Position numbers and translations under genes: made by a program. The notes below the pieces were generated by a model. The model had not been told where the DNA came from. It saw only the letters and a program-made list of their open reading frames with translations, and ran no database searches. 64,000 bases of DNA from a virus: the IMG/VR virus record IMGVR_UViG_3300032241_002679, positions 1 to 64,000 of that record. The stretch is one strand, 5' to 3'. Each line of letters opens with the position of its first letter. Position 1 is the first letter of the stretch. Below, one piece after another: positions 1,946 to 47,449 of this stretch.

Positions 1946-3352
1946 TTATGATATATTAAATCTTTTTTTTGTAGCATTATAATTTTGTAAAATTTCGGAT
2001 GCTGATAAACCTCTATTGTAAACTTTAGCATTTGCTATATATCCATTAAAAAATTCACCTGAACTTTGAGGATCTTTTGCTAAAGCTATATTACCACTTG
2101 GAGTTATTATTGATCCATTATTATTATTAATACTTATTCCATTTATATATAAAGTACCTGTAGATGTGTAACTTAATGCTAAATGTGTCCATTTATTAAG
2201 ACTAACGTTATTTCCATTAAATGATGCTATACCCCCATATAATGCGCCATAAACATTATTAAAAATAAATAATCCATATCCATTTGCACTTGTATTTCCA
2301 TTATAAAATATACATTGATTTCCAGCTGTAGTAGCTGTACAGTATATCCAAACATCTAATGTGAAATTTGTCGTATTTGTTAAAAATACTGGCTGTATAA
2401 CACTATTAGTTGCACCATCAAATGTTAATGCGCCATTATTTATGTTACTATAATATGGTAAATTAGATCCTGTTGATGTTAATGTTGCATTATAAAAATT
2501 ACCAGTTAAATCATACCATATTGTTGAACCAGCTTGATACGAACTAGGATTTGCTGCATCAAGATACAACATTAGATTATTTGTAACAACCGTACCGCCA
2601 AAACCATCATTAACATTACTTGTTGTAGTTGTTGTTGTAAATCTATTTTTTAAAACATTATAATTTTGTTGTATTTCTGATAATGATAAAGCTCTATTAT
2701 ATGCTGAACACGTAGCAATTAAACCATTAAAAGGAGCAATATTTCCAGAACCCCCTAATGGGTTTACCCTACCTAACCCAAGTGATAGTGTTTGAGCTGA
2801 TGAAGTTTGTTCGACAATACCATTATTCGATATTGTCGAATTTAATACACCATTTATATAAAAACTAGCAGCTAATGATGCGGCAGTATAAGTAATAGCA
2901 ATATTTGTCCATGTATTTAATGCAACAACAGTTGAACCACTATCTAATAAATCTTTATTTGGTGTATTCCAAAACCAAAGTTTACCATTACCCTGCATCC
3001 AAAATCCCCAGCCCCCAGTATTATTTGGTGAATTATCCCATTCTTTATCCAATATAATCATATTTGCATAACTTGGAATATTAATCCATGCTTGAAATGT
3101 TTTATCTACCAAATCCAATGCTTTTAAATTACTTCCAAAATTTACATAATTTGTAGCTCCCGTACCAAAGTATATTGCACCAAAGTTTGAACCGCTATAA
3201 CTAACAGAACCATTAAATGTTCCAGTATACCCAGTTGGACCTAAATCAGTAATTGTGGTTGAACCACTTCCATTTAATGAATTAATATTTGCCGCATCTA
3301 TATAAAATACGAGACTATTTGTAACAATTTGACTATTATTTTGAAAACTCAT
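1946..3352 (-). CDS. Two-domain LamG/concanavalin-like lectin virion protein
   Basis: A 468-residue protein made of two similar halves (about residues 1-235 and 250-468). Each opens with NSLVFYIDAAN or NNLMLYLDAAN, followed by a Gly/Thr-rich strand. Each contains the pattern of a LamG/concanavalin-like jelly roll: W-x-N/H-x-A-x-(S/T)-Y-T, then a 'YINGV' turn, then a closing strand with YNRxLSxSEIxQNYN. That closing motif is typical of the LamG-like fold in Bacteroidota and phage proteins. It probably binds a cell-surface glycan. The gene lies one base downstream of the 2124-residue fibre gene on the same strand, so the two are probably co-transcribed. The fold is well supported; the ligand is unknown. 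Confidence 0.8.
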   Translation of the reverse strand: MSFQNNSQIVTNSLVFYIDAANINSLNGSGSTTITDLGPTGYTGTFNGSVSYSGSNFGAIYFGTGATNYVNFGSNLKALDLVDKTFQAWINIPSYANMIILDKEWDNSPNNTGGWGFWMQGNGKLWFWNTPNKDLLDSGSTVVALNTWTNIAITYTAASLAASFYINGVLNSTISNNGIVEQTSSAQTLSLGLGRVNPLGGSGNIAPFNGLIATCSAYNRALSLSEIQQNYNVLKNRFTTTTTTSNVNDGFGGTVVTNNLMLYLDAANPSSYQAGSTIWYDLTGNFYNATLTSTGSNLPYYSNINNGALTFDGATNSVIQPVFLTNTTNFTLDVWIYCTATTAGNQCIFYNGNTSANGYGLFIFNNVYGALYGGIASFNGNNVSLNKWTHLALSYTSTGTLYINGISINNNNGSIITPSGNIALAKDPQSSGEFFNGYIANAKVYNRGLSASEILQNYNATKKRFNIS

Positions 3353-3353
3353 A

Positions 3354-6300
3354 TTATATAGCTCTTACTATTGTTTTGACTGTCCATGTACCAGTTGCAG
3401 CTGATGCTGATAATACGGCATTACCACTGACAACAGATACACCAAATGTTATAGCACTTGTACTTCCAATATCATTTGTAGAATTATCAGTATATTGAGC
3501 AGTTGTTCCACTAAATATACTCATAATAGTCCCACTTCTTGCTCCACTCGTACTTAATACAGTATAGTCAAAAAATACCCCTGTATACGCACTAATTGGT
3601 ATACTGTATATTGTTGTACCAGAACTTGCTGTTACATTTACTTTAGCTGTTGAATTTAAGGATAATGATTGATAATTACCCATAAACACTTGGCTAGATG
3701 CATTAACTTGGAATATTGGTAACCCAGAAATATTATTAACGTTGAATATAGTACCACTACCAAGATTATCACTAACTGAGAATAATGTACCCGTTGAACC
3801 AATTACACTGAATATTGGATTTGTTGTCCCACTACCAATAACAGTTAATACATTCTGCGCTGCTCCAGAGAATAAACCTGTATTTGCAGTAATTGATGCC
3901 GTATTTATTGTACTAGCTGATGTAGCTTGTAATACCGTATTACCAGTTACTGTCAAATTACCATTAACCGTTAATCCCGTAACCGTATTAATACTAGCAT
4001 TTAATGTACCACCTGTATTATTTGTTAGTGTAAATGTATTGTTATTATAGGTAAACCCTGTAGTATATACCGTAGCAAATGATGTTGGAAAACCAGTAAT
4101 ACTAGTTAGCGTACCTGAACCAGCTAATGTAATTGTACCAGCACTATATGTACCACCAGTAGCTGCATTAATAGTAATAGTTGTTGTGTTACCACCATTA
4201 GGCGTAATACTTAATATATTACTATTTAATGTAGCGGCTGATATATAATTCCATGTACCCGCTGTATATGTCTGTCCGTCATTTCTAATACTAGTTAATA
4301 TACCAGTACCAGCGTTATACGTACTTCCTGTAGTAAATGTATTTGCAGATATTAAACCAGTAATATTACTTAATGCACCACTACCACTAAGTGTAATCGT
4401 ACCATTAGAATATGTACCACCAGTAGCCGCATTAATTGTACTATTAATAATACTACCTCCATTAGACGTAATACTTAATATATTATTGTTTAATGTAGTC
4501 GCTGATACATAATTCCATGTACCTGCTGTATATGTAATACCATCATTACGTGCAAATGATAATGTACCTGTATTAGCATTATATGTAGAAGCTGTTGTGA
4601 ATGTATTTGCGGATATTAATCCTGTAATACTACTCAATACACCGCTACCAGATAATGTAATTGTACCAGCACTATATGTACCACCAGTAGCTGCATTAAT
4701 AGTAGTAGCAGTTGTACTACTTCCATTTAAAGCAACACTCAATACATTATTTACCAATGTAACAGCACTAGTAGACTGTGTACCAGTTAATACATCACTA
4801 CGATAATACAATACACCAGTAGAATCCTGAGTAATAAATTGCATTGTCTGAGCAGCTTGTATACCCTGAAATCTAACTGGATTTGTTATTGCCACTACAT
4901 GTAATGTATTTGTAATAGCACTAGATACTACATTTATACCTACCTGACCACTGGTCTGTGCTACGATACTTGGAATACCAGTTGTAACAGAATATGTATT
5001 ATTTCCAAACAATACACCACCAATATTAAAACTATTTGTAGTACCAGATGGTAATGATATATTTGTACCAATAATTGTATTATTAGAACCAATATTCGTT
5101 GAGTTATTAGCTACATTATAACCTATAAAATTTGAATAAGACGCATTAATAGCATTATTACCAGCTTGATAACCTATAAAATTTGTATTGCTCGCACCAG
5201 TTGCACTATAACCAGCATAATATCCAAAGAAATTTGAGTATGAAGCATTAGTTGCATTATATCCAGCATACTGGCCTAATAAATTTGTATTACTCGCACC
5301 AGTTGCAGTATATCCAGCATTAGCCCCAATAAATATTGAATTATTTGCTCCATTTGCTCCATAACCACTATTTGTTCCTAAAAAGTTTGAGTTATTAGCG
5401 TTTGTTGCTAATCTACCAGCTTGAGAACCTAAAAAGTTTGAATATGAAGCATTAGTTGCACTGTTTCCAACATTGTACCCAAAAAAGTTTGATTGCAAGG
5501 CATTATAGGCGTTTAAACCAGCATTTTGTCCTAAAAAGTTTGAGTTATTTGCACCACTAGCAGTCTGACCAGCACTAGAACCAATGAAATTTGAAAAAGA
5601 TGCACCAGTAGCATTATAACCAGCATAATATCCAAAGAAATTTGATTGATAAGCGACATTTGCTTGATATCCAGCATTTTGTCCTAAAAAGTTTGAATAT
5701 GAAGCATTAGTGGCTTGATTACCAGCATAATATCCAAAGAAATTTGAATATGGTGCATTTGGTGCTGCTTGACCAGCATAATATCCCAAGAAATTTGAGT
5801 TATTTGCCGCATTTGCACCATTACCAGCATAATATCCCAAGAAATTTGAATTATTTGCAGAATATGCGTTTATACCAGCAAGATATCCCAAAAAGTTTGA
5901 GTTATTTGCATAAGCAGCAGATTGACCAGCACTCTGTCCCAAGAAATTTGAGTTACTGGCTAAACTTGCACCATTACCAGCATTAGTTCCTAAAAAGTTT
6001 GAATTATTTGCGGAATACGCATTTATACCAGCACTCTGTCCTAAGAAATTTGAGTTATTTGCAGCATATGCTGTATTACCAGCATTCTGTCCAAAGAAAT
6101 TTGCACTAGTCGCAGCAGTCGCATTATACCCAGCACTAATTCCAATAAATGTGGAAGCACTAGCTATTGTAGCTCCACTACCAGCATTAGTTCCAATAAA
6201 ATTTGAGTTATTTGCAGAATATGCAAAACCACCAGCATTAGTTCCAATAAAATTTGAATTACTTGCAGAATATGCAACATAACCAGCATTAGTTCCAATA

Positions 6301-15230: not shown

Positions 15231-15754
15231 TTATACACCAGCAAATTCACTACTATCTATAGGTCCACATATTATAGTTCTATATGCACCCTTATATCCC
15301 ATAATTGTATGTTTATTGTCAAAATTTTTCTTACCATCATTAGATACACTATAATATCTAATTTCATTCTCCGATACTGGGTAACCAACATAATCACCAT
15401 AATCTATATCAGTCTCCATTTCATTCAATTGTTGTTGATAAATGCCAAAAGTAACCGTACCATCCTGAAGATATCTAGCTGTTCCGTCTTTATTATAAGC
15501 TTTATTCTCTGGCTCAGCTAAAATAGGTATTACCTTAAGTTCTATTGGCGGATAAAATCGTATACCATCTACAACAGCCTCACCATATAATTTATCAAAT
15601 TGCGATGTGGTTCTGTCTACTTTATATAAAATAATTGTGAAATTACCGTCACCCTCAATTGCTTCTCGGCCCATGGATTGTTCCAAAAAAAAAAATCTTC
15701 TTCAGAAAAGAATTTATTTATACGTGTAATTGGAATAATTTTATTATTTTGCAT
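15231..15754 (-). CDS. Small virion structural protein with a frameshift in an 11-T tract
   Basis: The N-terminus starts at ATG 15754 (MQNNKIIPITRINKFFSEED) and enters a run of 11 T on the sense strand (15685-15695). In the zero frame it then reads WNNPWAEKQ and stops at 15617. A -1 step in the run gives FFFLEQSMGREAIEGDGNF and continues for 151 residues to 15231, with no other start except TTG. The body (FTIILYKVDRTTSQFDKLYGE, then IRFYPPIELKVIP) looks like a compact virion protein beside gp15. The U11 run could support -1 frameshifting or polymerase slippage; an indel or sequencing error is equally possible. The start codon lies inside the end of the upstream endonuclease gene. Confidence 0.65.
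15685..15695 (-). other. Eleven-base T homopolymer that joins two frames
   Basis: GAT is followed by T runs and then GG. Re-reading one U in this tract connects the start ITRINKFFSEED to the 151-residue body. A tract of this kind is a classic site for ribosomal or polymerase slippage, and also a classic site for sequencing error. Confidence 0.6.
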
Positions 15755-16772
15755 GATTTTTAATATATTTATGAATCGTCTTATTTGAACAGCCGTATAT
15801 ATTACCAATTTGTACCATATTTAACCCATCTGATAAATATTTGGTAATATCGGTTATATTTAAATTGTATTTATTTGATAGTGGTTTTTTTATGTTATAT
15901 TTTTTTAAGTTACCACTAATAACAGTTCTATGGCACCCATAGTAAAATGCTATCTCGTCTATTTTTTTATTTTCATCAATAAATAATTTATATAATTCTA
16001 TTTCACTAATTTTATATTTAAAATTTGGGTTATTTTCCCCCTTAAAAATTTTCTCGTTTTTAACTTTATTACTTCTTTTTAAAAGCGTATTTTTTGATAG
16101 CGATTTATTAAACATTGGGTTATTTTTACCCGTATTATTAATGCTCATCAATTTTTTTGTTTCATTTGTATGCTTATAACCCAAAGAATATTTATTTCCT
16201 CGATGTATATTACCCATTATTTCTTTAGTTTCTTTCGTATGCCTATAGCCCAACGCTCTTTTATTTCCTTTCATATTTTCGGACATTTTTAGCTTAACGG
16301 CTTTAGCCCATTCTTCATTCCCCCATAATTCCTTTAACATTTTTTTCTTATCGATTATTTGTTTTTCTGTTAATTTTTTACCTTTATGGGTCTTAGATAT
16401 TTTTTCTTTAGCTTGAGCGGTATGAGTTTTACCAAACATTGGGTTAATATCCCCCCCATCTGCTATATTAAATAATAATGTTCCACACTTCCTTTCTTTT
16501 TGTATCAATTCTATTTCTGAACATAACATTTCTTCGTATGAATCACACTCTTTTATTAATCTAATTATCGGGCTTAAATTATTTTTTTTCAATTCATTAA
16601 ACCATAAAGCTATTTTTCCGTTTGTTGGACTTCTTAAATGGCCACGAAGCCTAGCATTCAATGTTCCCATAGTAATTCCAATATACTTTAAATTATTATT
16701 TTTAGGACAATACAATCCATATAATAAAAATTTATTTATCCTAGTAATAGGCGTTAATTTTGGATTATTCAT
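15744..16772 (-). CDS. GIY-YIG homing endonuclease with NUMOD3 repeats, carrying a captured structural-gene start
   Basis: 342 residues. After a start MNNPKLTPITRINKF comes the GIY-YIG catalytic core (LLYGLYCPKN...YIGIT, then L-x-x-RLRGHL; residues about 16-95). Next are several NUMOD3-type DNA-binding repeats (NPMFGKTHT, ALGYRHTKETKEIM, SLGYKHTNETKKLM, NNPMFNKSLS). The C-terminal region has helix-turn-helix features (DEIAFYYGCHRTVISGNL and MVQIGNIYGCSNKTI). The first 15 residues repeat the start of the downstream structural gene (PITRINKF), and the end overlaps that gene's ATG. It seems to have inserted at that gene's 5' end, borrowing its start. It probably acts as a free-standing selfish endonuclease. 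Confidence 0.88.
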   Translation of the reverse strand: MNNPKLTPITRINKFLLYGLYCPKNNNLKYIGITMGTLNARLRGHLRSPTNGKIALWFNELKKNNLSPIIRLIKECDSYEEMLCSEIELIQKERKCGTLLFNIADGGDINPMFGKTHTAQAKEKISKTHKGKKLTEKQIIDKKKMLKELWGNEEWAKAVKLKMSENMKGNKRALGYRHTKETKEIMGNIHRGNKYSLGYKHTNETKKLMSINNTGKNNPMFNKSLSKNTLLKRSNKVKNEKIFKGENNPNFKYKISEIELYKLFIDENKKIDEIAFYYGCHRTVISGNLKKYNIKKPLSNKYNLNITDITKYLSDGLNMVQIGNIYGCSNKTIHKYIKNHAK

Positions 16773-16881: not shown

Positions 16882-19182
16882 TTGATTAATTTAGACGATA
16901 TTAAAGGAAATTATGCTTTAACTTTATTAGAAAATTACAATGGTCTTAATCCATACTTAATTAAAATGAAAAAAGACTATTTTAATAATAAAACTAAACT
17001 GACTGATACTCAAATAAAATATATAAGTGATAATCATGAAAAAGAACCAATTCTAATCAATAGAATTATTAGGATAACGCCATTTTTGGGTGAAGAATTA
17101 AAAAAACAGGATAACATATCATTCATACCTGAAAAAATACTAATAGAATATATTTTAGCTGAAAATGAAAAAACCTATCATATCTATGGTAAACTAAAAA
17201 AGAATCAAAAAGAATCTAAAATGTATTGGTTACCAAAAACACAAGTGATAGATGACCCATATTATGAAGAAGTCAATGTAGATGTCGATTTTAATAAGTA
17301 TAATTCAATTCTAGCCAAATACGGCAAAAAACTATATCAACACCAAGAAGAGTCAGTTAAATTTTTGTTGTCAAGGAATAGTAGTATATTGGCCTTAGAC
17401 ATGGGACTTGGAAAATCAATGATTTCGATAATAGCAGCTTTAGAATCTGAAGCTAAAAACATATTAGTAGTCTGTCCCTCATCAGTTAAGATAAATTGGA
17501 AGCGTGAAATAAATACATTTTCTAATAACGTAACAATAATAGAGGGTCGTAAATGGGATAAAGCTAAGTTTACAATAATAAATTATGATATTTTAAAAAA
17601 TTTTCATACAATTGGTAATCAAAAGAAGAAAAATAATACAGACTCTGTGGATTATAATAGACAAATAGTAGATTCCAATTTTGACTTAATAATCGTAGAT
17701 GAAGCGCATTATTTAAAAAACAATAAAAGCATTCGTGGAGAAATAATTGCTGATCTCGTTATAAATCATGGTATTAATAAGATATGGCTATTAACTGGCA
17801 CACCTATTTCTAATAGGCCAATGGATTTTTTTAATTTATTAAAAATAATTAAATCTCCGTTAGCTCAAAATTGGCAATATTACGCTATCAGATACTGTGA
17901 TGCTAGAAAAATGTTCAGAACACTTAAAAATGGTAACAAAAAACAAATTTGGATTACAGATGGTGCATCTAATTTAGATGAATTAGCTTCAAAAACTAAA
18001 AATTTAATACTCAGAAAACTTAAGACCGATGTATTAGATATGCCAGATAAAGTAACCATACCTGTATATCATGAACTATCTAAAAAAGGCTGGGGTGAAT
18101 ATAATAGACTATGGGATGAATATCTTGAAAAAAGAAGAGAAGAGAAAAAAAGAGGCCCTATACAAAGAGATCTAGTAGAATTAATACTCCTGCGTAAATT
18201 CATAGCTATGGAGGCTATACCACAGACTATAGAAATGACTGAAAACGCTATAGAAATGGATAAAAAAGTAGTTATTTTCACTAGTTTCACTGATGAGCTT
18301 CTTGAATTAAGCGATTATTTTGGAAAGAATGCCGTACTGCATTATGGACCAATGTCAGATAAAGAAAAACAAAGAAGTGTAGATGAATTTCAAAATAATG
18401 ATAAAATAAAAGTCTTTATTGGTAATATTAAATCAGCTGGTGTCGGTATTACACTTACAAAAGCTACTGTTGTAATCTTTAACTCATTCGAATGGGTTCC
18501 TAGTTGGAATGAACAAGGGGAGGATAGGTGTGTTTTTGAGGGGCAATTAATTATGACTGATTCTGGTTATAAAAAAATAGAGGACATCCAAATTGGTGAT
18601 AAAGTATACACACATCTTGGAAATTTTAAAAAAGTTATTAACATTCATACGCATTTAGAAATAAAAAAAACGAGAATAGATATTAATAGTTTTGGTTTTA
18701 ACGAAAAATTAAGTTTAACCGAAGATCATAAAGTTTTTGTCTATAATACAGAAAAAAAACATTTTGAATGGGTTGAAGCCATTAATTTAAATATTTTTAA
18801 ACACAAATTAACATTAAAATTAAATAAACAACGAATTAATGAAAAAGAATACTTAGAAGTTGATGATTATATTTTATATCCGATTAAAAATATTAACATT
18901 AGTCAAGCAAAAAAGGGTGAAGAACGAGTTTATGACTTATCAGTTGAGGATGATAATTCTTTTGTTGTCGGGGGCTATAATGTCCATAATTGTTATAGAA
19001 TAGGACAGAATGAAGATGTAAATGTATATTATCAATTATTTGAGGATACTATATCAGTCAGAATGTGGGAGACACTAAGAAATAAAAAAGAAGTTATCTC
19101 AACAATCATGGGTGATAAAAAATTGAGTGATGAAGAAATAACACAAATAATGACAAATAAATTAATTGAAAATTATGAATAA
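16882..19182 (+). CDS. SNF2-family DNA helicase/translocase interrupted by a mini-intein
   Basis: 766 residues as encoded, about 612 after splicing. The N-terminal 150 residues are followed by the ATPase core: Walker A in LALDMGLGKSMISI (about 170), DEAH in LIIVDEAHYLKN (about 272), motif III LLTGTPISNRP, a second RecA lobe with VVIFTSFTDELLEL, and motif VI split as EDR / CYRIGQ by the intein. It is expected to act on phage DNA in replication, repair or recombination. The frame is preceded directly by TAA, so the start is the TTG at 16882 unless an internal ATG (codon 28) is used. The N-terminal sequence looks genuinely coding. The glutaredoxin gene overlaps its end. Confidence 0.88.
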   Translation: MINLDDIKGNYALTLLENYNGLNPYLIKMKKDYFNNKTKLTDTQIKYISDNHEKEPILINRIIRITPFLGEELKKQDNISFIPEKILIEYILAENEKTYHIYGKLKKNQKESKMYWLPKTQVIDDPYYEEVNVDVDFNKYNSILAKYGKKLYQHQEESVKFLLSRNSSILALDMGLGKSMISIIAALESEAKNILVVCPSSVKINWKREINTFSNNVTIIEGRKWDKAKFTIINYDILKNFHTIGNQKKKNNTDSVDYNRQIVDSNFDLIIVDEAHYLKNNKSIRGEIIADLVINHGINKIWLLTGTPISNRPMDFFNLLKIIKSPLAQNWQYYAIRYCDARKMFRTLKNGNKKQIWITDGASNLDELASKTKNLILRKLKTDVLDMPDKVTIPVYHELSKKGWGEYNRLWDEYLEKRREEKKRGPIQRDLVELILLRKFIAMEAIPQTIEMTENAIEMDKKVVIFTSFTDELLELSDYFGKNAVLHYGPMSDKEKQRSVDEFQNNDKIKVFIGNIKSAGVGITLTKATVVIFNSFEWVPSWNEQGEDRCVFEGQLIMTDSGYKKIEDIQIGDKVYTHLGNFKKVINIHTHLEIKKTRIDINSFGFNEKLSLTEDHKVFVYNTEKKHFEWVEAINLNIFKHKLTLKLNKQRINEKEYLEVDDYILYPIKNINISQAKKGEERVYDLSVEDDNSFVVGGYNVHNCYRIGQNEDVNVYYQLFEDTISVRMWETLRNKKEVISTIMGDKKLSDEEITQIMTNKLIENYE
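18529..18990 (+). other. Mini-intein in helicase motif VI (154 residues)
   Basis: The intein starts at the Cys codon 18529 (block A: CVFEGQLIMTDSGYKKIED), has block B TEDHKVFVY with the TxxH histidine, and ends in block F/G YDLSVEDDNSFVVGGY then VHN, just before Cys at 18991. The length leaves no room for a homing endonuclease domain, so it is a mini-intein. Excision rejoins DR-CYRIGQ, the arginine-finger motif VI of SNF2 enzymes. Unspliced protein should therefore be inactive. Confidence 0.92.
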
Positions 19183-19542: not shown

Positions 19543-20700
19543 ATGAGCGTACCAACAGTAGATCGTGATAGGATATTTACCCAATTTAGACATTCTTTAG
19601 GTGCCCCAATTAGGCAAATTGAATTAACGGATGAACAGTTATGTACATTATTGCAAATAGCAATAGAGGATTATTCTGAATATGTACAAGAGTGGCTAAT
19701 TGAATTTCAATGGCAGAGTGTATTTGGTAAAAATATTAGTACTACGGATATGGCATTCGCCATGAGTGTTAGATCATTTGATTTCATGAGTCAATATACT
19801 TACGCATATTCCAAACAAGTTGGTTTACAGACTAATGGCCCATGGGAATTAAAAAAAGACTATATAACACTTGAGGCTGGTAGACAAGTATATTTAATAC
19901 CAGCTGGTAGAGAAGTTAATGAAGTATTATGGTTTACCCCTAGTACAGTTAGTGAGGCCTTATTAGCCAATTATGGTGGTATTGATTATGGCTTTGGTGG
20001 TGGATTTGCTCAAATGGGTGGTGGTTATGGTACGGCTGGTACTGGTACTGGTGGTGGTCGTAGTGGTTATTATATAGCACCAGCTTTCGATATGTTATTA
20101 ACGGCTGGGGATATGAATTTAAAAAATCGTATCGTAAGAAGTGATTTAGCATATAAAATTACAGCAGGACCAAATGGTACAAAATTATTACATCTCATGT
20201 CCACGCCAGGTTCCCTACTATCCTTTGGTATGGGTATTGATACGCCTGGCGGCCTTGGTAACAGTATGTCAATTGCTGGTTGCCAAGTATGGTATTTTTA
20301 TTATGATACGACACCAGAAAATGTTGATCAATGTCGTATCGATAATCCAGATATAATAATGTTACCAAACCAAGTACCGTTATCACAATTGGATTTTTCT
20401 ACATTTAATGAACCTACTAAAGTCCTTATAAGACAATTATTTGTCGCTGAAGCTAAAAGAGCTTTAGGTAGAACTAGAGGTAAATTTGGTGGTATTGTTG
20501 GACCTCCTGAAGCTGAAAGAACAATGGATTACGAAACTCTTATTACAGAAGGGAATGAAGAAAGAAAGGCTGTACTTGAGAGACTTGATGCGAGATTACT
20601 CAGACTTTCATCAACTGCGCAATTAGAGAGGGGTGCAAATGAAGCTGAATTCTTAAATAAACAACTTAAATATCGTCCTTTAGGATTTTGGGTTTATTAA
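19543..20700 (+). CDS. gp13-like neck / head-completion protein
   Basis: 385 residues. The N-terminus (FRHSLGAPIRQIELTDEQLCTL, then IAIEDYSEYVQEW) has the 'LGAP..xxELTxEQL....AxxxYxEY' pattern I associate with gp13-type neck proteins of T4-like phages. A Gly-rich loop at residues about 145-172 (GGIDYGFGGGFAQMGGGYG) is followed by beta-rich sequence and a C-terminal helical part (VLIRQLFVAEAKRALGRTRG). In T4, gp13 and gp14 close the filled head and dock the tail. It stands alone on the plus strand with its own candidate late promoters, and its last 21 bases overlap the end of the convergent endonuclease gene. The family name is moderately sure; a virion role is more so. Confidence 0.6.
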   Translation: MSVPTVDRDRIFTQFRHSLGAPIRQIELTDEQLCTLLQIAIEDYSEYVQEWLIEFQWQSVFGKNISTTDMAFAMSVRSFDFMSQYTYAYSKQVGLQTNGPWELKKDYITLEAGRQVYLIPAGREVNEVLWFTPSTVSEALLANYGGIDYGFGGGFAQMGGGYGTAGTGTGGGRSGYYIAPAFDMLLTAGDMNLKNRIVRSDLAYKITAGPNGTKLLHLMSTPGSLLSFGMGIDTPGGLGNSMSIAGCQVWYFYYDTTPENVDQCRIDNPDIIMLPNQVPLSQLDFSTFNEPTKVLIRQLFVAEAKRALGRTRGKFGGIVGPPEAERTMDYETLITEGNEERKAVLERLDARLLRLSSTAQLERGANEAEFLNKQLKYRPLGFWVY

Positions 20701-22161
20701 TAATTTATAGCATTTATTTCCAGAATCATAAATTCTATAAATTTTTCTGTTGATCATGATTTCATGTTCAGATTTATCTGAATTATAACCCTGTTCAATT
20801 AGAACATTTTTTCTAAAATTAAATCTATATTTTCTTTTGTCATTATCTATATAATAATAATTGGGTCTGCTATTATGACTAAATTCAAAGCCTAATTTTT
20901 CGTATAAATTACCATTGGACCATCTTCTGTCAGCATAGCTTATTATTTCATTTGGATTATAATTTCTAATAAAATATTGAAGTAGTTTATTAGCACCTCC
21001 AATTACGGTGGTATCCAATTTATTACAGAATCTTAATAATTCATATGAATTATTTGATTTATTTTTACCCATTGTTTTTCTTAAAGAGCCAAATGTCATT
21101 ATACCGATTAATTCATCATTATAATATAATCCTATTTTTATTTTAGCGTTTACATGTCCCTGAATATGGTTTAATTCTAAAAATTCTTTTGTTTTTTTAT
21201 TATCTATTTCTTTAATAATACATTTTCTTGCGTGTATTTTATTAGATGTGAGTCCTAATATATTTTTAAGTCTTGATCTAACAATATCCTGTTTATATAC
21301 CCATTCATCCTCAAATATATGAATTAATCTTATGCCTTGTTTTTCACAAGCAATTGTTTTATTAAGATGATAATTTTTTAATTTAAATTTTTCACTATGC
21401 CAATATAACCCATTGAACTCAATTGCGAGGTTATGACTAGGTATATAGATATCTAATTCTTGTTTATCTAATATGTTTCTATTTTTTAATTCTACATTAA
21501 TATTGAATGATTTAATGAAGTCTGAAATATCATTTTCTGCTTTAACATTTTTCAATGAACATTTTAAACAGCCCTGTTTTTGTGATAAATGATTTTTTGG
21601 TGTCTGTTCAAATTCACCATGTATTGGGCATATTAATTTAATATTTGTATATGAATTAATATATTCTGATAATGAATAGTCATATTTGTTTTTATTAATT
21701 TCTTTGGATTCATTAATAAATTCTTCTGTTAATTTTGTATTTTTTAAATAACCGCAAAGTTTACAGCCATATTTTATATGTGCGTTAGGAGTCTGTTCAA
21801 ACTCACCATGTATTGGGCATATGATTTTAACTCTGTCTTTATTTGTCTTATAATTTACCAAAGAATAATCATATTTATTTCCATGAATTTTTATTGATTT
21901 TTTAATAAAATCATCAATAGTATTTCTAAATAAATTTGAATTTTTATTATAACCGCAATTTTTACATCCTTGGCCTTTTATATGTTTATATGGAGTTTGT
22001 TCAAATTCACCATGTATTGGACATATTATTTTAATCTTAGTATCTGTATTAATATAATTTACTAAAGAATAATCATATTTATTATTATGAATTAATTTAG
22101 CTTCATTAATAAATTCTTGTGTCGTTTTTTTTATATTTTTATTAGAAGTTCCACTCATCAT
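20680..22161 (-). CDS. Vsr-like homing endonuclease with three zinc-binding repeats and a GNAT-like C-terminal part
   Basis: 493 residues. Residues about 10-195 contain three copies of a DUF723-like unit: FINEAKLIHNNKYDYSLVNY, then ICPIHGEFEQTP, H, and C-x-x-C, probably zinc-binding. The nuclease core follows (about 215-300): ELDIYIPSHNLAIEFNGLYWHSE, then IHIFEDEW, the Vsr-like PD-(D/E)xK arrangement seen in 'EDxHD' homing enzymes. Residues about 310-470 (IGLYYNDELIGIMTFGSLR, ISYADRRWSNGNLYEKLGF) resemble an acetyltransferase-like module often fused to phage endonucleases. It lies directly downstream of, and overlaps by 20 bases, the DNA polymerase gene. The domain order is clear; the target site is unknown. 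Confidence 0.85.
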   Translation of the reverse strand: MMSGTSNKNIKKTTQEFINEAKLIHNNKYDYSLVNYINTDTKIKIICPIHGEFEQTPYKHIKGQGCKNCGYNKNSNLFRNTIDDFIKKSIKIHGNKYDYSLVNYKTNKDRVKIICPIHGEFEQTPNAHIKYGCKLCGYLKNTKLTEEFINESKEINKNKYDYSLSEYINSYTNIKLICPIHGEFEQTPKNHLSQKQGCLKCSLKNVKAENDISDFIKSFNINVELKNRNILDKQELDIYIPSHNLAIEFNGLYWHSEKFKLKNYHLNKTIACEKQGIRLIHIFEDEWVYKQDIVRSRLKNILGLTSNKIHARKCIIKEIDNKKTKEFLELNHIQGHVNAKIKIGLYYNDELIGIMTFGSLRKTMGKNKSNNSYELLRFCNKLDTTVIGGANKLLQYFIRNYNPNEIISYADRRWSNGNLYEKLGFEFSHNSRPNYYYIDNDKRKYRFNFRKNVLIEQGYNSDKSEHEIMINRKIYRIYDSGNKCYKLLINPKS

Positions 22162-40458: not shown

Positions 40459-41376
40459 ATGGGGAATAAAATTATTTTAGATGATAAATTGATTCAACTA
40501 ATTAAAGACCAATATATTTCTGGAATTGGCTCAACAATAATTAGTAAAAACTTAAATATCCCAAAACATACAATTTTAAAAATATTAAATAAATTAAAAA
40601 TAATAAGGAATAGACGTATATCTAAAGAATTTTATTCTAATTTTTGGGAAGAAGAAAACATGTGGTGTGGTAATTATGTATGTAAATCCTGCAACGAAAA
40701 AATAAAATTTTGTGTTAATGAAAAATCGTTATTAAATAGAAATTTAAAAAGAAAAAACATTTGTAAAAAATGTTCATTAAAAAAACAAATCGGTAGCAGT
40801 AATTCATTTTATGGAAAAAAACATATGGAAAAAACCAAAAAACAAATATCAAATAAAAAAATTGGTATTTGTACAAGTAACCATAGTAAAAAGCCTGAAT
40901 ATAGGAAACTATATAGCAAGTTGGCAAAAGAAAGGTGGGCTAGCGGTAAAATGGAATCAACCAGAATCAAATTAAGTAACTTGATGAAATCAAGGATAAT
41001 GAATGGTAAATTAAAGGGTTATATTAGATCTAAAGCCGAACTTAAAATAGTTGATGAAATTCAAAATCTAGGAATAATCGTTATAGAAAATTTTAAAATA
41101 AAAACAAAAGTATTTGATATCTATATACCAAAATTTAATTTACTGATAGAATACAATGGAGATTATTGGCATTGTAACCCTAAAAAATATAGTCCTAATT
41201 ATTTTAATAGTAAAAAAAATAAAACAGCGGAAGAAATTTGGAACTATGATAAGAATAAACTTGACTTAGCAAAAAAGTATAATTATACTTGCGAAACAAT
41301 TTGGGAATCGGATTATAAAAAAGATCCCGAAATAATAAAAAATATAATAAAAAAATATGACACAAAACATGATTAA
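40459..41376 (+). CDS. Vsr-like homing endonuclease
   Basis: 305 residues. N-terminal helix-turn-helix (LIKDQYISGIGSTIISKNLN, HTILKILNKLKI), a zinc-binding segment (CKSCNEKIKFC ... CKKCSLKK), NUMOD-like basic repeats (NSFYGKKHMEKTKKQISNKK), and a C-terminal Vsr-like core: KAELKIVDEIQNLG, FDIYIPKFNLLIEYNGDYWH, and CETIWESDYK. The order E..D..IEYNG-x-YWH matches the 'EDxHD' homing family. It sits between a terminator and the glycosyltransferase gene; its stop overlaps that gene's start region. The downstream gene carries an in-frame stop just past a hairpin, so this enzyme may be the mobility partner of that insertion. Confidence 0.83.
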   Translation: MGNKIILDDKLIQLIKDQYISGIGSTIISKNLNIPKHTILKILNKLKIIRNRRISKEFYSNFWEEENMWCGNYVCKSCNEKIKFCVNEKSLLNRNLKRKNICKKCSLKKQIGSSNSFYGKKHMEKTKKQISNKKIGICTSNHSKKPEYRKLYSKLAKERWASGKMESTRIKLSNLMKSRIMNGKLKGYIRSKAELKIVDEIQNLGIIVIENFKIKTKVFDIYIPKFNLLIEYNGDYWHCNPKKYSPNYFNSKKNKTAEEIWNYDKNKLDLAKKYNYTCETIWESDYKKDPEIIKNIIKKYDTKHD

Positions 41377-43759
41377 TCTCACCCCAGTTCGTCAAAAAAT
41401 TAAGCTATTAGTGGTAGCTAGTGACAGAACTGGGGTGAGCTGACTAAGCTTTTTTAGATCAACAAAACCACATATTCATTTAGAAAAAAATTATCCTGAT
41501 GAATTTCAAATTGATATAGATTATGAACCACATTTGGATAATGATGAATGGTTAAAACAATATGATATTATTCACTATCACAGAACACTGGGTCCGTATG
41601 AACAAATGGAAAGTTTAATTAAAAGATTAGATAATTTAGGTATTGTTAGTATTATGGATTTGGATGATTATTGGTCACCTGGCCCTCATCACCCAGCTTA
41701 TCTCTTAATAAAGAACACTGGTTTAGACAAAATGATATTAAACAATATTAAACTTGCAAAAAATGTAACTACTACTACAAAAATTTTTGCTGAAGAAATT
41801 GCTAAACATAATAAAAATGTATTTGTATTGCCAAATGCAATTGATCCAACCGAAAAACAATTTACATATAATCCAGAAAAAAATGACCGAATTAGAATTG
41901 GTTGGTTAGGTGGTAGTTGTATGACACCAGATACAGAAATATTGACAAATGAAGGGTGGAAACGATTTGATAAGCTAAATCAAACCGAAGAAGTAGCGAC
42001 ACTAAACCCAGAAACAAATGAAATTGAATACAATAAACCAACTGGCTATATTTGTGAACCATTTGATGGACAATTAAATTGTGCTAAAAACGAGTTAGTT
42101 GAGTACGAAGTAACACCAAACCATAACATGTATGTATCAGAAGCTAAAAATCTAACACATAAAAAATTAGATTTACGGTTGATACAATCCGAAAAAATAC
42201 ATGGCAAAAATTTTCATGTTAAGATAGATGGTATTTGGAAAGGCGAAGAAATGAAATACTTTGTTTTACCAAAATTAAATTTTGAGACTGAGCAAGAAGA
42301 ATCATATATTGATTCTTTAATAGCTAAGAAATATAAACCAACTAATTATTTAGTTGATAAATATGGTTCGGATCTACATTTAGATATGGATAAATGGTTA
42401 AAGTTTTTTGGTTTTTGGATGGCTGAAGGGTGGACTAGTAAATCAAGAGGTTTATATCAAGTTGGTGTTGCACAAACTAAGGATAATAATTATTTATCTG
42501 AAATGTTTGATACTTTAACAGAATTAGGGTTTAACCCAAAATACACCAAAGATAAAAAACAACTTAGAGTTTTTGATAAACAACTATGGGATTATTTATC
42601 TTATTTTGGCCAAGCGTTTGAAAAATTTATACCCAACGATATTTTATCATTATCTAGTCGTCAATTGGAAATATTTTTAGAGTGGTTCATAAAAGGTGAC
42701 GGAACGGTAGAATCTAATAAATACCAAAGAAAAAGAGCCTTTACTAGTTCTAAAAAATTAGCGGATAATTTACAAGAATTAGCGTTAAAAATTGGTATAA
42801 CAGCCACTATAACAAATAGGGGAAAAAGAACATCCAGTATTAAAGGAAGACCGATTATAAATCAATACGATAGTCTTCAAATTAATTTTGGAAAAAAACC
42901 AAGTATTAGTAAACACAATAAATCAACACCATTAGTAAAATCTTCAGAACAATATAATAGATATTATAAAGGTAATGTATATTGTGTTGAGGTTCAGAAT
43001 CATATTATTTATGTTAGAAGAAACGGTAAAGCAATGTGGGTTGGTAATAGTCACCTTAAAGATCTAGAAGTTTTAAAAGGCGTAGCTGGTAGAGTAGCTA
43101 GTGAAGGATTATTGGATAAAATACAATTTGTTGTATGTGGTTTTGACCTAAGAGGAACCATGACAATAATTGATGAAAAGACAGGAGAACAAAAACAAAG
43201 ACCAATTCTACCACGTGAAAGTGTATGGTTTGAGTATGAGAAAATATTCACTGATGATTATAATATAGTTAGTCCTGAATATAAAGAATTTTTATTGAAA
43301 TTTAAAAATGAGGAGTATCCAAATTTAATGAATGAACCGTATAGAAGAGTATGGACAAAACCAATAAGTACATATGCCACTAATTACAATTTGTTTGATA
43401 TATCATTAGCACCAATTGAAGAAAACATATTTAATAGAGTTAAAAGTCAGCTTAAAGTTATTGAATCTGGATTTCATAAAAAAGCATTAATAGCACAGGA
43501 ATATGGTCCTTATCAAATAGATATTAAGAATGCGTATCAATTTGGTGGTGGTTGGGATGAAAATGGAAATGGAATTTTAATAAATAGCAATAAAAACCAT
43601 AAAGATTGGTCTAAATTTATTATTAAACTAATTAAACAGCCAGAATTAATTAAACAATTGGGCGAAAATTTATATAATACGGTAAAAAATACATATTCAT
43701 TAGATAAGGTTACTGAAGACCGAAGAAATTTATATCATAAACTAATAGGCAATAAATAA
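41357..43759 (+). CDS. Glycosyltransferase with in-frame TGA (possible bypass) and an intein
   Basis: The frame from ATG 41357 reads MTQNMINLTPVRQKIKLLVV, ASDRTGVS, then TGA (41441-41443), CTA, AGC, and continues FFRSTKPHIHLEKNYPDEF and HYHRTLGPYEQM, then LDDYWSPGPHHP. The two parts clearly form one N-terminus: 'SDRTGV-x-FFRS' is continuous if one AGC and the TGA-CTA between the AGC pair are skipped. The exteins after splicing are about 423 residues of a GT4/GT-B-like enzyme (IRIGWLGGS-SHLKDLEVLKG, ISLAPIEENIFNRVKSQLKV). An intein sits in the GGS-S loop. If the TGA stops translation, only a TTG at 41534 could start the rest. Whether it is recoded or broken cannot be told from sequence alone. 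Confidence 0.75.
41378..41439 (+). other. 13-bp perfect inverted repeat ending at the interrupted codon
   Basis: CTCACCCCAGTTC (41378-41390) and GAACTGGGGTGAG (41427-41439) are exact inverted repeats around a 36-base loop, and both arms are coding. Three more pairs (TCA/TGA) are possible inside after a small internal loop. The 3' arm ends within the AGC codon that precedes the TGA. It is unusually G+C-rich for this genome, so a stable RNA hairpin is expected just upstream of the stop. Confidence 0.85.
41438..41449 (+). other. Duplicated AGC codons flanking a stop (candidate take-off/landing pair)
   Basis: AGC TGA CTA AGC. Moving peptidyl-tRNA-Ser from the first AGC to the second (9 bases) removes the stop and restores GVS-FFRS, the length expected for this family. 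Readthrough would instead insert three residues (X-L-S). Confidence 0.5.
41918..43048 (+). other. Intein with LAGLIDADG endonuclease domain (377 residues)
   Basis: Starts with Cys at 41918 (block A CMTPDTEILTNEGWKRFDKL) and has block B YEVTPNHNMYV. A central two-motif LAGLIDADG/DOD endonuclease follows (KFFGFWMAEGW and LEWFIKGDGT). It ends with block F/G VYCVEVQNHIIYV then MWVGN, followed by Ser at 43049. It interrupts the donor-binding loop GWLGGS-SHLKD of the glycosyltransferase. Full-length and probably mobile. Confidence 0.93.
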
Positions 43760-44961: not shown

Positions 44962-45729
44962 ATGAAATTAGATTTTAACGATTTATTAATTGTTCCACAA
45001 AAAATCACTTCAATAACCTCTAGATCAATGGTTAATCCATTTGCTAAAGATTATCTTCCATTAATGACTGCTCCAATGGATACTGTTATTGATAATAATA
45101 ATAGTGATGTATTTTTTAAAAACAAAATTAGAGTTTGTTTTCCCAGAGGAATTTATGCTGAAAGAGGGTTTAAGTCTTTTTCTATCTCAGAAATGGCTGA
45201 ATTAGTTCAACAAAATAATATAAAGCCTGATAACAGTTACTTAATTGATATAGCAAATGGTCATATGAAAAATGTTTTAGAATTGGTTAAAACAATAAAA
45301 GAAAAATATCCTAATTTAAAGTTAATGGTCGGCAACATTGCTAATCCTGAAACATTTGCTTTATTATCTGATGCTGGTGCTAATTATATTAGAGTTGGTA
45401 TAGGCAATGGCGGAGGATGCATTTTAGAAAATTCTATTGTTTCAACTAAGTCGGGGGATAAACCAATTCAAAATGTCGAAATAGGCGATTATGTTTTAAC
45501 CCACACTGGTGAATATAAAGAAGTAATTAGCACAATTGCATATCCCAGTCGTGAAGAACTTATAAAAATTAACAACACGATATCAACTAAAACACACGAA
45601 TTTTATGTATTAAATAAGATTTATAAAGATTTAGTTGACGATGATAATATTCATAATTATGCTGAATGGATTAAAGCCGAAAATCTAACTAACGAATTTT
45701 TTTTATTGGAATATGATGAGAATGATTAA
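44962..45729 (+). CDS. IMPDH/GMP reductase-family N-half fused to a split intein N-part
   Basis: 255 residues. Residues 1-152 are the N-terminal half of a TIM-barrel IMPDH/GMP reductase (LDFNDLLIVPQKITSITSRS, PLMTAPMDTV, LMVGNIANPETFALLSDAGA, YIRVGIGNGGG). Cys at 45418 starts the intein N-part of 103 residues: CILENSIVSTKSGDKPIQNV, then EIGDYVLTHTGEY, STKTHEFYVLN (block B TxxH) and the acidic ending LLEYDEND before the stop. It pairs with the intein C-part encoded at 46778. An endonuclease gene lies between. The product is expected to join by protein trans-splicing. Confidence 0.92.
   Translation: MKLDFNDLLIVPQKITSITSRSMVNPFAKDYLPLMTAPMDTVIDNNNSDVFFKNKIRVCFPRGIYAERGFKSFSISEMAELVQQNNIKPDNSYLIDIANGHMKNVLELVKTIKEKYPNLKLMVGNIANPETFALLSDAGANYIRVGIGNGGGCILENSIVSTKSGDKPIQNVEIGDYVLTHTGEYKEVISTIAYPSREELIKINNTISTKTHEFYVLNKIYKDLVDDDNIHNYAEWIKAENLTNEFFLLEYDEND
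45418..45726 (+). other. Split intein, N-part
   Basis: 103 residues from Cys1 to the stop. The sequence closely follows the IMPDH-1 split intein N-part as I remember it (TLI/STIA, EEIISING/EELIKINN, TKNHEFYVI/TKTHEFYVL, RWVHAEEL/EWIKAENL). No endonuclease domain. Confidence 0.9.
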
Positions 45730-45747
45730 CCTTTTAATAGGTTCGAC

Positions 45748-45755
45748 ATATTTAT
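45748..45755 (+). promoter_or_regulatory. Candidate late promoter octamer overlapping the endonuclease start
   Basis: ATATTTAT whose last two bases are the first two of the ATG at 45754. If it is a promoter, the transcript would start inside the gene, so it may instead be chance or serve the downstream intein C-part. Confidence 0.2.
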
Positions 45756-46800
45756 GATAAAACCCATTATGTTGAAGAAACTTTTTAATAAAAAAAATAT
45801 TTGTCTAGAATGCCAGGAATTTTTTAATAAAGATACCGACAATAAAAATTTTTTATCTTTTACTAGTCATTTAAAAACACACCATGGTATGTCTAATGAG
45901 GAATATTATCGTAAATATTATCTAAAAAATAGTGAGGGTCTTTGCGCTTGCGGATGCGGTAATAAAACCACATTTCATAAAGGTAAATATTTAAAGTATT
46001 TTTCTGACCATAAAAATTATATTACTCAGACAGATTTAACACTCTTAAAAATTAAAAAATCTAAAGAAAAATATAATAAAATTTCTAGTTTATTAAAAAA
46101 AACAGGTATAACATTTGATGAATTAAAAAAAACATATGATGAATTTATTAATTTAGAAAAACCAATTAGTGTTTTATCGAAAGATTTATCAATTGATTTT
46201 AGAACATTAAAGGATTATTGGTTAAAAGTTGGTTTAATTGAAAATAAAGAAATTTTTAAACGGACATGCTTAAAATCTCAAACTAAATGGCTAAATAAAC
46301 CATTGGTTCCAAATGATAATATTGTTGAAAATTTACGGTCTAAATTATTTTTAATTAAAGAACTTTTAAATAGGTCGGATAAAGTAACTTTTAACCAAAT
46401 AATTACTGTTATAGATTTAAAACTTAATAAAAATTATCTTGGTTGGTTTCTAAAGGAAAATCTGACATCTACAGAGTTAAAAAAGGTTAAATTCATTAAA
46501 CACAGTCAAATTGAAATTGATTTTCTTAATTTATTAAAATTTTATTTCGATAAATCGGTTTTAGGTTCTTTTGAGCTTGATGGTAAAATTTTTGATTACA
46601 AATTGGGTAAAAATATTTTAATTGAATTAGATGGCGAATATTGGCATTCATCCGATGAAACTAAAATCAATGATAAATTAAAAAATGAAATAGCTAAGTC
46701 TAATGGATTTACTCTAATTAGAGTTAATGATAAACATGTTAAATCATTAGATTTTTTAAATAATTTAAAAAATATATATGAAAAAATTAAAAAAATATAA
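45754..46800 (+). CDS. Vsr-like homing endonuclease between the split intein halves
   Basis: 348 residues. The N-terminus has zinc-binding features (CLECQEFF ... HLKTHHG and CACGCGNKTTFHKGKY..H). The middle is helical with a DNA-binding-like segment (KPISVLSKDLSIDFRTLKDY). The C-terminus is the nuclease core: KHSQIEIDFLNLLKFYF, SFELDGKIFDYKLG, ILIELDGEYWHSSDE, and FTLIRVNDKHV, the Vsr-like EDxHD arrangement. It overlaps the intein C-part gene by 23 bases. The place and family match the endonucleases reported in 'fractured gene' loci. It probably targets intein-less copies of the IMPDH gene. Confidence 0.85.
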   Translation: MIKPIMLKKLFNKKNICLECQEFFNKDTDNKNFLSFTSHLKTHHGMSNEEYYRKYYLKNSEGLCACGCGNKTTFHKGKYLKYFSDHKNYITQTDLTLLKIKKSKEKYNKISSLLKKTGITFDELKKTYDEFINLEKPISVLSKDLSIDFRTLKDYWLKVGLIENKEIFKRTCLKSQTKWLNKPLVPNDNIVENLRSKLFLIKELLNRSDKVTFNQIITVIDLKLNKNYLGWFLKENLTSTELKKVKFIKHSQIEIDFLNLLKFYFDKSVLGSFELDGKIFDYKLGKNILIELDGEYWHSSDETKINDKLKNEIAKSNGFTLIRVNDKHVKSLDFLNNLKNIYEKIKKI

Positions 46801-46915
46801 ATTAAAAGAAATTGAAACTATTGAGTTTATAAATACTGAGTCATATAATATGTTACATGATATAACAGTTGATAAAAATCATTCCTATCAAGTTAACAAT
46901 AATATTGTTCATAAT
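46778..46915 (+). other. Split intein, C-part
   Basis: 46 residues, MKKLKKYKLKEIETIEFINT through LHDITVDKNHSYQVNNN, then IVHN before Cys at 46916. Blocks F and G are intact (HN then a nucleophile). It is an acceptable partner for the N-part 45418-45726 in length and sequence. Confidence 0.9.
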
Positions 46916-47449
46916 TGCCTCACAACTCAAAATACGGGTGTTGGATATCCAATGGCATCCCTAATTAAAGAATGTTATGAGGTATCACTGTCATTAAAGA
47001 ATCCAGCTTATATTGTTGCTGATGGTGGAATGCAGACATATAGTGATGTTATAAAAGCTTTAGCATTAGGCGCTGATTATGTAATGCTTGGTAGCATTTT
47101 TAATAAAGCACTTGAATCTGCTGGTTCTAATTATTTATGGAAAAAAATAAGAGTTCCACAAATAATTGCTAATAAAGCTTATAAATTCGGTGTTCCTGTT
47201 TATAAGAAGTTTCGTGGAATGAGTACTAAAGAAGTTCAAAAGAAATGGGGTTCTAAGAATATTAAAACTAGCGAAGGTGTAATACGATATAGAAAAGTGG
47301 AGTACACTCTTGGTCAATGGTGTGAAAATTTTGAACATTATTTACGCTCAGCTATGAGCTATACAAATGCTAAAAATTTAAAAGAATTTATTGGCCAAGT
47401 AGAATTGATTGAGATAACAAATAATGCGTATAAAAGATTTAATAAATGA
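46778..47449 (+). CDS. Split intein C-part fused to the IMPDH/GMP reductase C-half
   Basis: 223 residues. After the 46-residue intein C-part, 177 residues give the second half of the barrel: CLTTQNTGVGYPMASLIKEC, IVADGGMQTYSDVIKALALG, ADYVMLGSIFNKALES, FRGMSTKEVQKKWGS and a C-terminal KVEYTLGQW...AMSYTNAKNLKEF. The first Cys after the splice point lines up with the family's catalytic Cys. The spliced enzyme would be about 329 residues, without CBS domains, so the fold is IMPDH/GMP reductase and the exact reaction is open. The end overlaps the next gene as ATGA. Confidence 0.9.
   Translation: MKKLKKYKLKEIETIEFINTESYNMLHDITVDKNHSYQVNNNIVHNCLTTQNTGVGYPMASLIKECYEVSLSLKNPAYIVADGGMQTYSDVIKALALGADYVMLGSIFNKALESAGSNYLWKKIRVPQIIANKAYKFGVPVYKKFRGMSTKEVQKKWGSKNIKTSEGVIRYRKVEYTLGQWCENFEHYLRSAMSYTNAKNLKEFIGQVELIEITNNAYKRFNK

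Follow-up and report, generated by a model that had tools for sequence, protein, structure and literature searches.

How can a phage enzyme gene be cut in two directly before the codon of its catalytic Cys and still encode a complete enzyme? This question is raised by positions 44962-47449 of a 64,000-nucleotide stretch of viral DNA, hereafter the window, which is taken from position 1 of a 141,843-bp IMG/VR record (IMGVR_UViG_3300032241_002679); related loci are labelled L003, L004, L005 and so on. Three + strand genes, overlapping or nearly contiguous, are found there. The first open reading frame (ORF1) carries the N-half of an IMPDH/GMP reductase (GMPR) barrel followed by the N-part of a split intein (IntN), ORF2 is a free-standing endonuclease gene, and ORF3 carries the C-part of the intein (IntC) followed by the C-half of the enzyme. 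Very probably, this arrangement is a fractured-gene cassette, the intein parts of which would splice in trans to yield a scarless enzyme, while the endonuclease would bring about its homing.

The junctions run in the order ...VGIGNGGG / C(IntN)...VHN / CLTTQNTGVGYP, and the cassette, from IntN through the endonuclease gene to IntC, measures 1,498 bp in the window. An earlier sequence-only reading had described this fracture, and its coordinates, sizes and gene order are all as it gave them, including the gap of 1.05 kb between ORF1 and ORF3 (1,048 bp, containing the endonuclease ORF). The observation of an enzyme gene fractured by a split intein, with an endonuclease gene in between, is confirmed: the joined halves match intact homologs and the two intein parts lie at the facing ends. 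The start codon of IntC is located out of frame, 23 bp within the endonuclease gene, and the genes overlap likewise in L003, L004 and L005. Since the same three-gene order recurs in four further distinct records (L003, L004, L005, which equals L006, and L208), chance or mis-assembly is excluded.

The enzyme and its split point

Both halves match the Pfam IMPDH profile (PF00478), ORF1 over profile positions 121-181 (E = 2.8e-17) and ORF3 over the adjoining positions 180-340 (E = 1.7e-21). Moreover, ~90 distinct intact phage genes align with the joined 329-residue product without interruption at the junction, and huge phages and Lak phages are among the carriers of intact homologs. L007, an intact relative that shares 71% identity with the joined halves, has human GMPR2 (2a7r) as its best PDB match (E=3e-30), with GNGGGCLTT aligned to GPGSVCTTR and TSEG to ASEG. 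The window gene is split directly before the Cys that aligns, via L007, with the Cys of GPGSVCTTR, which agrees with the placement of the split before the catalytic Cys in the sequence-only reading. Residues of GMP reductase (GuaC) whose catalytic roles are general knowledge are all present in the L007 alignment, namely the catalytic Cys, a Thr two positions after it and the SEG-motif Glu, and the window is identical there.

Since both motifs correspond to those of GMPR2, GMP reductase is the likelier activity of the window enzyme. Thus, from the earlier assignment to IMPDH/GMP reductase, the barrel family stands, and the protein is GMP-reductase-like, not IMPDH-like. L007 misses the NCBIfam GMP-reductase equivalog cut-off (131 vs 397 bits) and the window halves score lower, so they belong to a divergent phage family. 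An intact, intein-free IMPDH gene elsewhere in the genome had been named beforehand as an observation that would count against the fractured gene; no second GMPR/IMPDH copy is present in the 141,843-bp record, which may be incomplete and in which the two halves are the sole IMPDH-family matches, nor in the related fractured records, which may also be incomplete. Adenylosuccinate synthetase/PurZ, sought as a link to the 2-aminoadenine pathway, is absent from the record, and that link was dropped.

Split intein, endonuclease and selection

The intein carries Cys1, a TxxH B-block (T57..H60) and VHN/C at its C-end, and the splicing residues are unchanged across the alignments of eight related split inteins. 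As a single sequence it gives weak matches to Pfam Hint_2 (E=0.0015) and gp41-1 (6qaz, E=9e-4); a profile of the related split inteins matches gp41-1 firmly (E=3.8e-9), so that the comparison with gp41-1 proposed earlier supports a split intein. Both are class 1 split inteins, gp41-1 being shorter, with Ser at +1 and in another host gene. Identity of the window IntN amounts to 81% with L003, 79% with L004, 59% with L005 and 60% with L208.

The use of Cys rather than Ser at +1, unlike IMPDH-1, had also been pointed out from the sequence and is borne out, since IMPDH-1 is published with Ser at this position and with parts of 106+42 residues (PMC11766414), a size similar to that of the window intein. 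The two inteins occupy the same loop of the same enzyme superfamily; however, the native junction of IMPDH-1 is GGG/SIC (PMC12350263), whereas that of the window is NGGG/CLT, which places the window site two residues downstream. The window intein thus shares neither the insertion point nor the Ser of IMPDH-1 and is a different allele, one in which the catalytic Cys doubles as the +1 residue.

The endonuclease was correctly recognized as Vsr-like by the sequence-only reading, which placed its start at 45754; the start conserved in relatives is the ATG at 45769, giving 343 residues. I-Bth0305I (3r3p), an EDxHD/Vsr-like protein, is the best PDB match by sequence (phmmer E=0.0027) and the sole convincing PDB relative, besides weak Pfam matches to DUF559/MTES_1575. 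It also ranks first in Foldseek for the fold of the nuclease core (prob 1.00, TMt 0.59), searched with an AlphaFold2 model built on four sequences and with an overall pLDDT of only 65.6. I-Bth0305I differs in being deposited as a mobile intron protein, not between intein halves, and only a core of ~90 residues matches. The window endonuclease is 76% identical to that of L003, 73% to L004, 62% to L005 and 49% to L208; it has no match in the phages collection or in the genome contigs.

The exteins, the intein parts and the endonuclease are all under purifying selection. Between the window and L003/L004, with synonymous divergence (dS) close to saturation, the ratio of nonsynonymous to synonymous divergence (dN/dS) is 0.06-0.08 for IntN, 0.08-0.12 for IntC, 0.15-0.19 for the endonuclease, 0.22-0.25 for the N-extein and ~0.10 for the C-extein. 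The enzyme would be active only after trans-splicing, a reading supported by the purifying selection that acts on the two enzyme halves as well as on the intein.

Features of the fractured gene and its cassette in the window
Feature	Coordinates	Strand	Basis
Enzyme N-half, GMP-reductase-like TIM barrel, 152 aa, ending ...VGIGNGGG	45417 as last position, from 44962 (44962..45417)	+	Pfam PF00478; collinear with intact L007, L012 and others
Intein N-part, 103 aa, Cys1, TxxH B-block, then stop codon	45418..45729	+	Hint_2; gp41-1 profile match; identity to relatives
Conserved spacer, candidate translational control element: hairpin at IntN stop, then GTTCGACATATTTAT	45727..45783	+	Cassette comparison; pairing
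EDxHD/Vsr-like homing endonuclease, 343 aa from conserved ATG	45769..46800	+	3r3p by sequence and fold; ORF open from 45754
Endonuclease nuclease core, motif IELDGEYWH at 46621-46647	46501..46788	+	3r3p alignment; weak Pfam DUF559/MTES_1575
Intein C-part, 46 aa, ending NNNIVHN	46778..46915	+	F/G blocks read directly; alignments
Enzyme C-half, 177 aa, first residue catalytic Cys (= splicing +1), CLTTQNTGVGYP	46916..47449	+	Pfam PF00478; Cys alignment via L007

Spread of the cassette and competing explanations

The fractured genes are surrounded by ~90 distinct intact homologs. In an extein tree of 48 rows, the five cassette carriers (window, L003, L004, L005 and L208) stand at five separate places beside intact genes, and forcing the carriers into a single clade is rejected (p-AU 5.4e-6). 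The phages of L005 (occupied) and L012 (empty) are ~92-97% identical across most of 30 kb and differ at this site by a clean 1,495-bp insertion with no gap at the junction. These related phages indicate that the cassette passes from virus to virus complete, as a single unit. Furthermore, the forms found at the same site would correspond to stages of a homing life cycle, with the endonuclease intact (window, L003-L005, L208), decaying (L083) or missing from a split intein encoded by two separate ORFs ~100 nt apart (L162), and with the site empty in L007, L012 and others. The cassette endonuclease of L083 contains two in-frame TGA codons; recoding (TGA=Trp) was considered and rejected, decay being more likely because the other main ORFs of the locus have none.

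The proposed course of events begins with a selfish cassette that would have inserted directly before the catalytic-Cys codon of a GMP-reductase-like gene in a phage. The two halves would then be translated as separate polypeptides and come together through their intein parts, which would splice in trans; the chemistry, performed by Cys1 and by the +1 Cys that later serves as catalytic Cys of the enzyme, would leave an unscarred TIM barrel. The endonuclease, expressed from its own gene, would cut the corresponding conserved active-site codons in those alleles of co-infecting phages that lack the cassette. Repair would then copy the whole cassette into the cut allele.

Several points weigh against this course. 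Splicing and empty-site cleavage are steps that we infer from the sequence, as are GMP reductase activity and translational control by a stem at the endonuclease start codon. The L005/L012 pair may reflect either gain in L005 or loss in L012, and its two genomes are mosaic over 30 kb, with 11 of the 64 windows compared below 90% identity. Around the insertion, between about -1350 and +600, identity falls to 84-95%, as against ~99% just outside, which is the pattern expected of a co-conversion tract; however, equally deep dips occur elsewhere, so that this one is consistent with co-conversion but no proof of it. As proof of homing, co-conversion was weakened when the flanks were widened. Moreover, dN/dS between the window and L005 is higher (IntN 0.35, IntC 0.46), with synonymous sites near-saturated. 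The flanks of this pair (L201-L204) are themselves mosaic, with 80-100% identity and several exchange boundaries besides the cassette.

The alternative that survives best, although very unlikely, is that the gene is simply broken, with a decaying intein insertion, halves that are no longer joined and an endonuclease that is an ordinary free-standing passenger. L083 is an example of how the endonuclease part can fall into decay, and splicing in the window is likewise something that we infer; nevertheless, exteins, intein parts and endonuclease are all under purifying selection, the splicing residues are invariant in the eight split inteins and the arrangement is intact in five diverged records. 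That the halves form an active enzyme with no covalent splicing, in the manner of some fragmented enzymes of phages, is highly improbable: PMC10448857 mentions an endonuclease gene that splits a gene for phage ribonucleotide reductase, but the intein parts are more constrained than the exteins among the closest cassettes, and unspliced intein tails would occupy the active-site loop. Hardly credible is a single polypeptide made by stop read-through and frameshifting and spliced in cis with the endonuclease as an internal domain, since, although the endonuclease ORF of the window lies in frame with IntN, one stop and 24 nt away, read-through is contradicted by the TGA and then TAG in that frame in L005, the endonuclease gene overlaps IntC in another frame both in the window and in L003, L004 and L005, the endonuclease-free L162 has separate ORFs and the endonuclease start codon is conserved.

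Start-codon stem, insertion loop and known systems

Between the stop of IntN and the endonuclease start, the 15-nt GTTCGACATATTTAT (45741-45755) is identical in the four close cassettes and absent from the other loci gathered up to that comparison. A section of it pairs with the start codon of the endonuclease gene, in helices of 9, 9, 8 and 9 bp, whereas helices at 50 ORF starts of the window are mostly 5-6 bp and 4-6 of the 50 reach a comparable length. The share of paired cells is 87.5% in four sequences and 83.5% in five, as against 18-38% and 19-35% in slid controls, and the pairing persists in L208 despite an endonuclease only about half identical. No covariation beyond shuffles was detected in the spacer stem, and folding z-scores are modest. 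Hairpins hide the start sites of T4 homing endonuclease genes, and the conserved stem is suggestive of a candidate translational switch. A phage promoter was rejected as an explanation of the motif, which occurs in full only once in the window and has a core no more frequent than by chance. That the cassette goes beyond a neutral passenger is very unlikely; on that reading, the caging of the catalytic Cys at the splice junction, the separate translation of the halves and the start-codon stem would jointly set when, during infection, the enzyme is assembled and the endonuclease made, with splicing switching on GMP reductase activity.

Three positions within ~12 residues of this one loop are occupied by several different inteins. 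The upstream site, GIGxG/(S/C)xC, is occupied in L009, L015, L197, L211, L212, L215 and L217, in forms that include a split intein with a NUMOD3-type endonuclease between the halves (L009), a contiguous full-length intein (L015), NUMOD3+Vsr (L211), no endonuclease (L212) and a Vsr remnant (L215). L197, like L211, L212 and L215, belongs to the IMPDH-1-type upstream site, and its intein is 36% identical to that of the window. At a third, downstream site (...KTG/CGYPQ; L216, L218, ~3001-4170), the enzyme gene is again fractured, and between its halves lies a different gene, which is unclassified. In the junction-pattern scans, the majority of matches were unrelated proteins.

Other inteins were encountered alongside. 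In L015, an adjoining dUTPase gene with an intein C-part (2117-2434, VHN/CDYRGEVK) lies directly upstream of the GMPR gene with the contiguous intein. L220 (1468-6196) holds a fractured type II topoisomerase-like gene with a split intein in a TOPRIM-like motif (AGDSD/C...THN/CDGYHIKG) and a zinc-finger, Vsr-like endonuclease gene between its halves, and L221 (2737-5843) a split intein with extein ends LPIS/C...VHN/CYLNYI that resemble ribonucleotide reductase. The window itself contains a SNF2-type helicase (16882-19179, +) with a contiguous, endonuclease-free mini-intein near the end of the helicase C domain (EDR/CVFEG...YNVHN/CYRIGQ), a glycosyltransferase-like ORF (41534-43756, +) with an in-frame LAGLIDADG-bearing intein (WLGGS/CMTPD...MWVGN/SHLKD), and three further homing/HNH endonuclease-like genes (20683-22161, -; 15747-16772, -; 40459-41373, +), one of which is next to a gene that encodes a PolB exonuclease domain.

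Host genes in two pieces, each bearing one part of a split intein and separated by a free-standing endonuclease gene, were reportedly described by Dassa and colleagues in 2009 (NAR 37:2560), with IMPDH among them. As far as this work is presented in the papers that cite it (PMC7090010, PMC6892783), the kind is known and the window shares its plan; the differences are a GMP-reductase-like host, a site two residues downstream, Cys instead of Ser at +1, and a setting in long assembled contigs of phages, against which empty alleles can be compared. The PolB split intein of phage MIJ3, with an HNH endonuclease (PMC6892783), is likewise a fractured gene, in an isolated jumbo phage, but in a different gene and with a different endonuclease family. 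Set against the Dassa cases as the citing papers convey them, this case contributes the point of insertion, a Cys with a dual role, a pair of occupied and empty alleles and a stem at the start codon.

The insertion site is very exposed, being the active-site Cys of the enzyme itself; this catalytic Cys has to serve as splicing nucleophile as well, and therefore the host cannot lose it. Metagenomic fractured-gene split inteins (gp41-1, NrdJ-1, IMPDH-1) rank among the fastest trans-splicing tools in use, whereas the spread of their three-gene cassettes has so far been mostly inferred. An occupied/empty pair, together with decaying and endonuclease-free forms at one site, makes the homing of a split-intein cassette directly testable.
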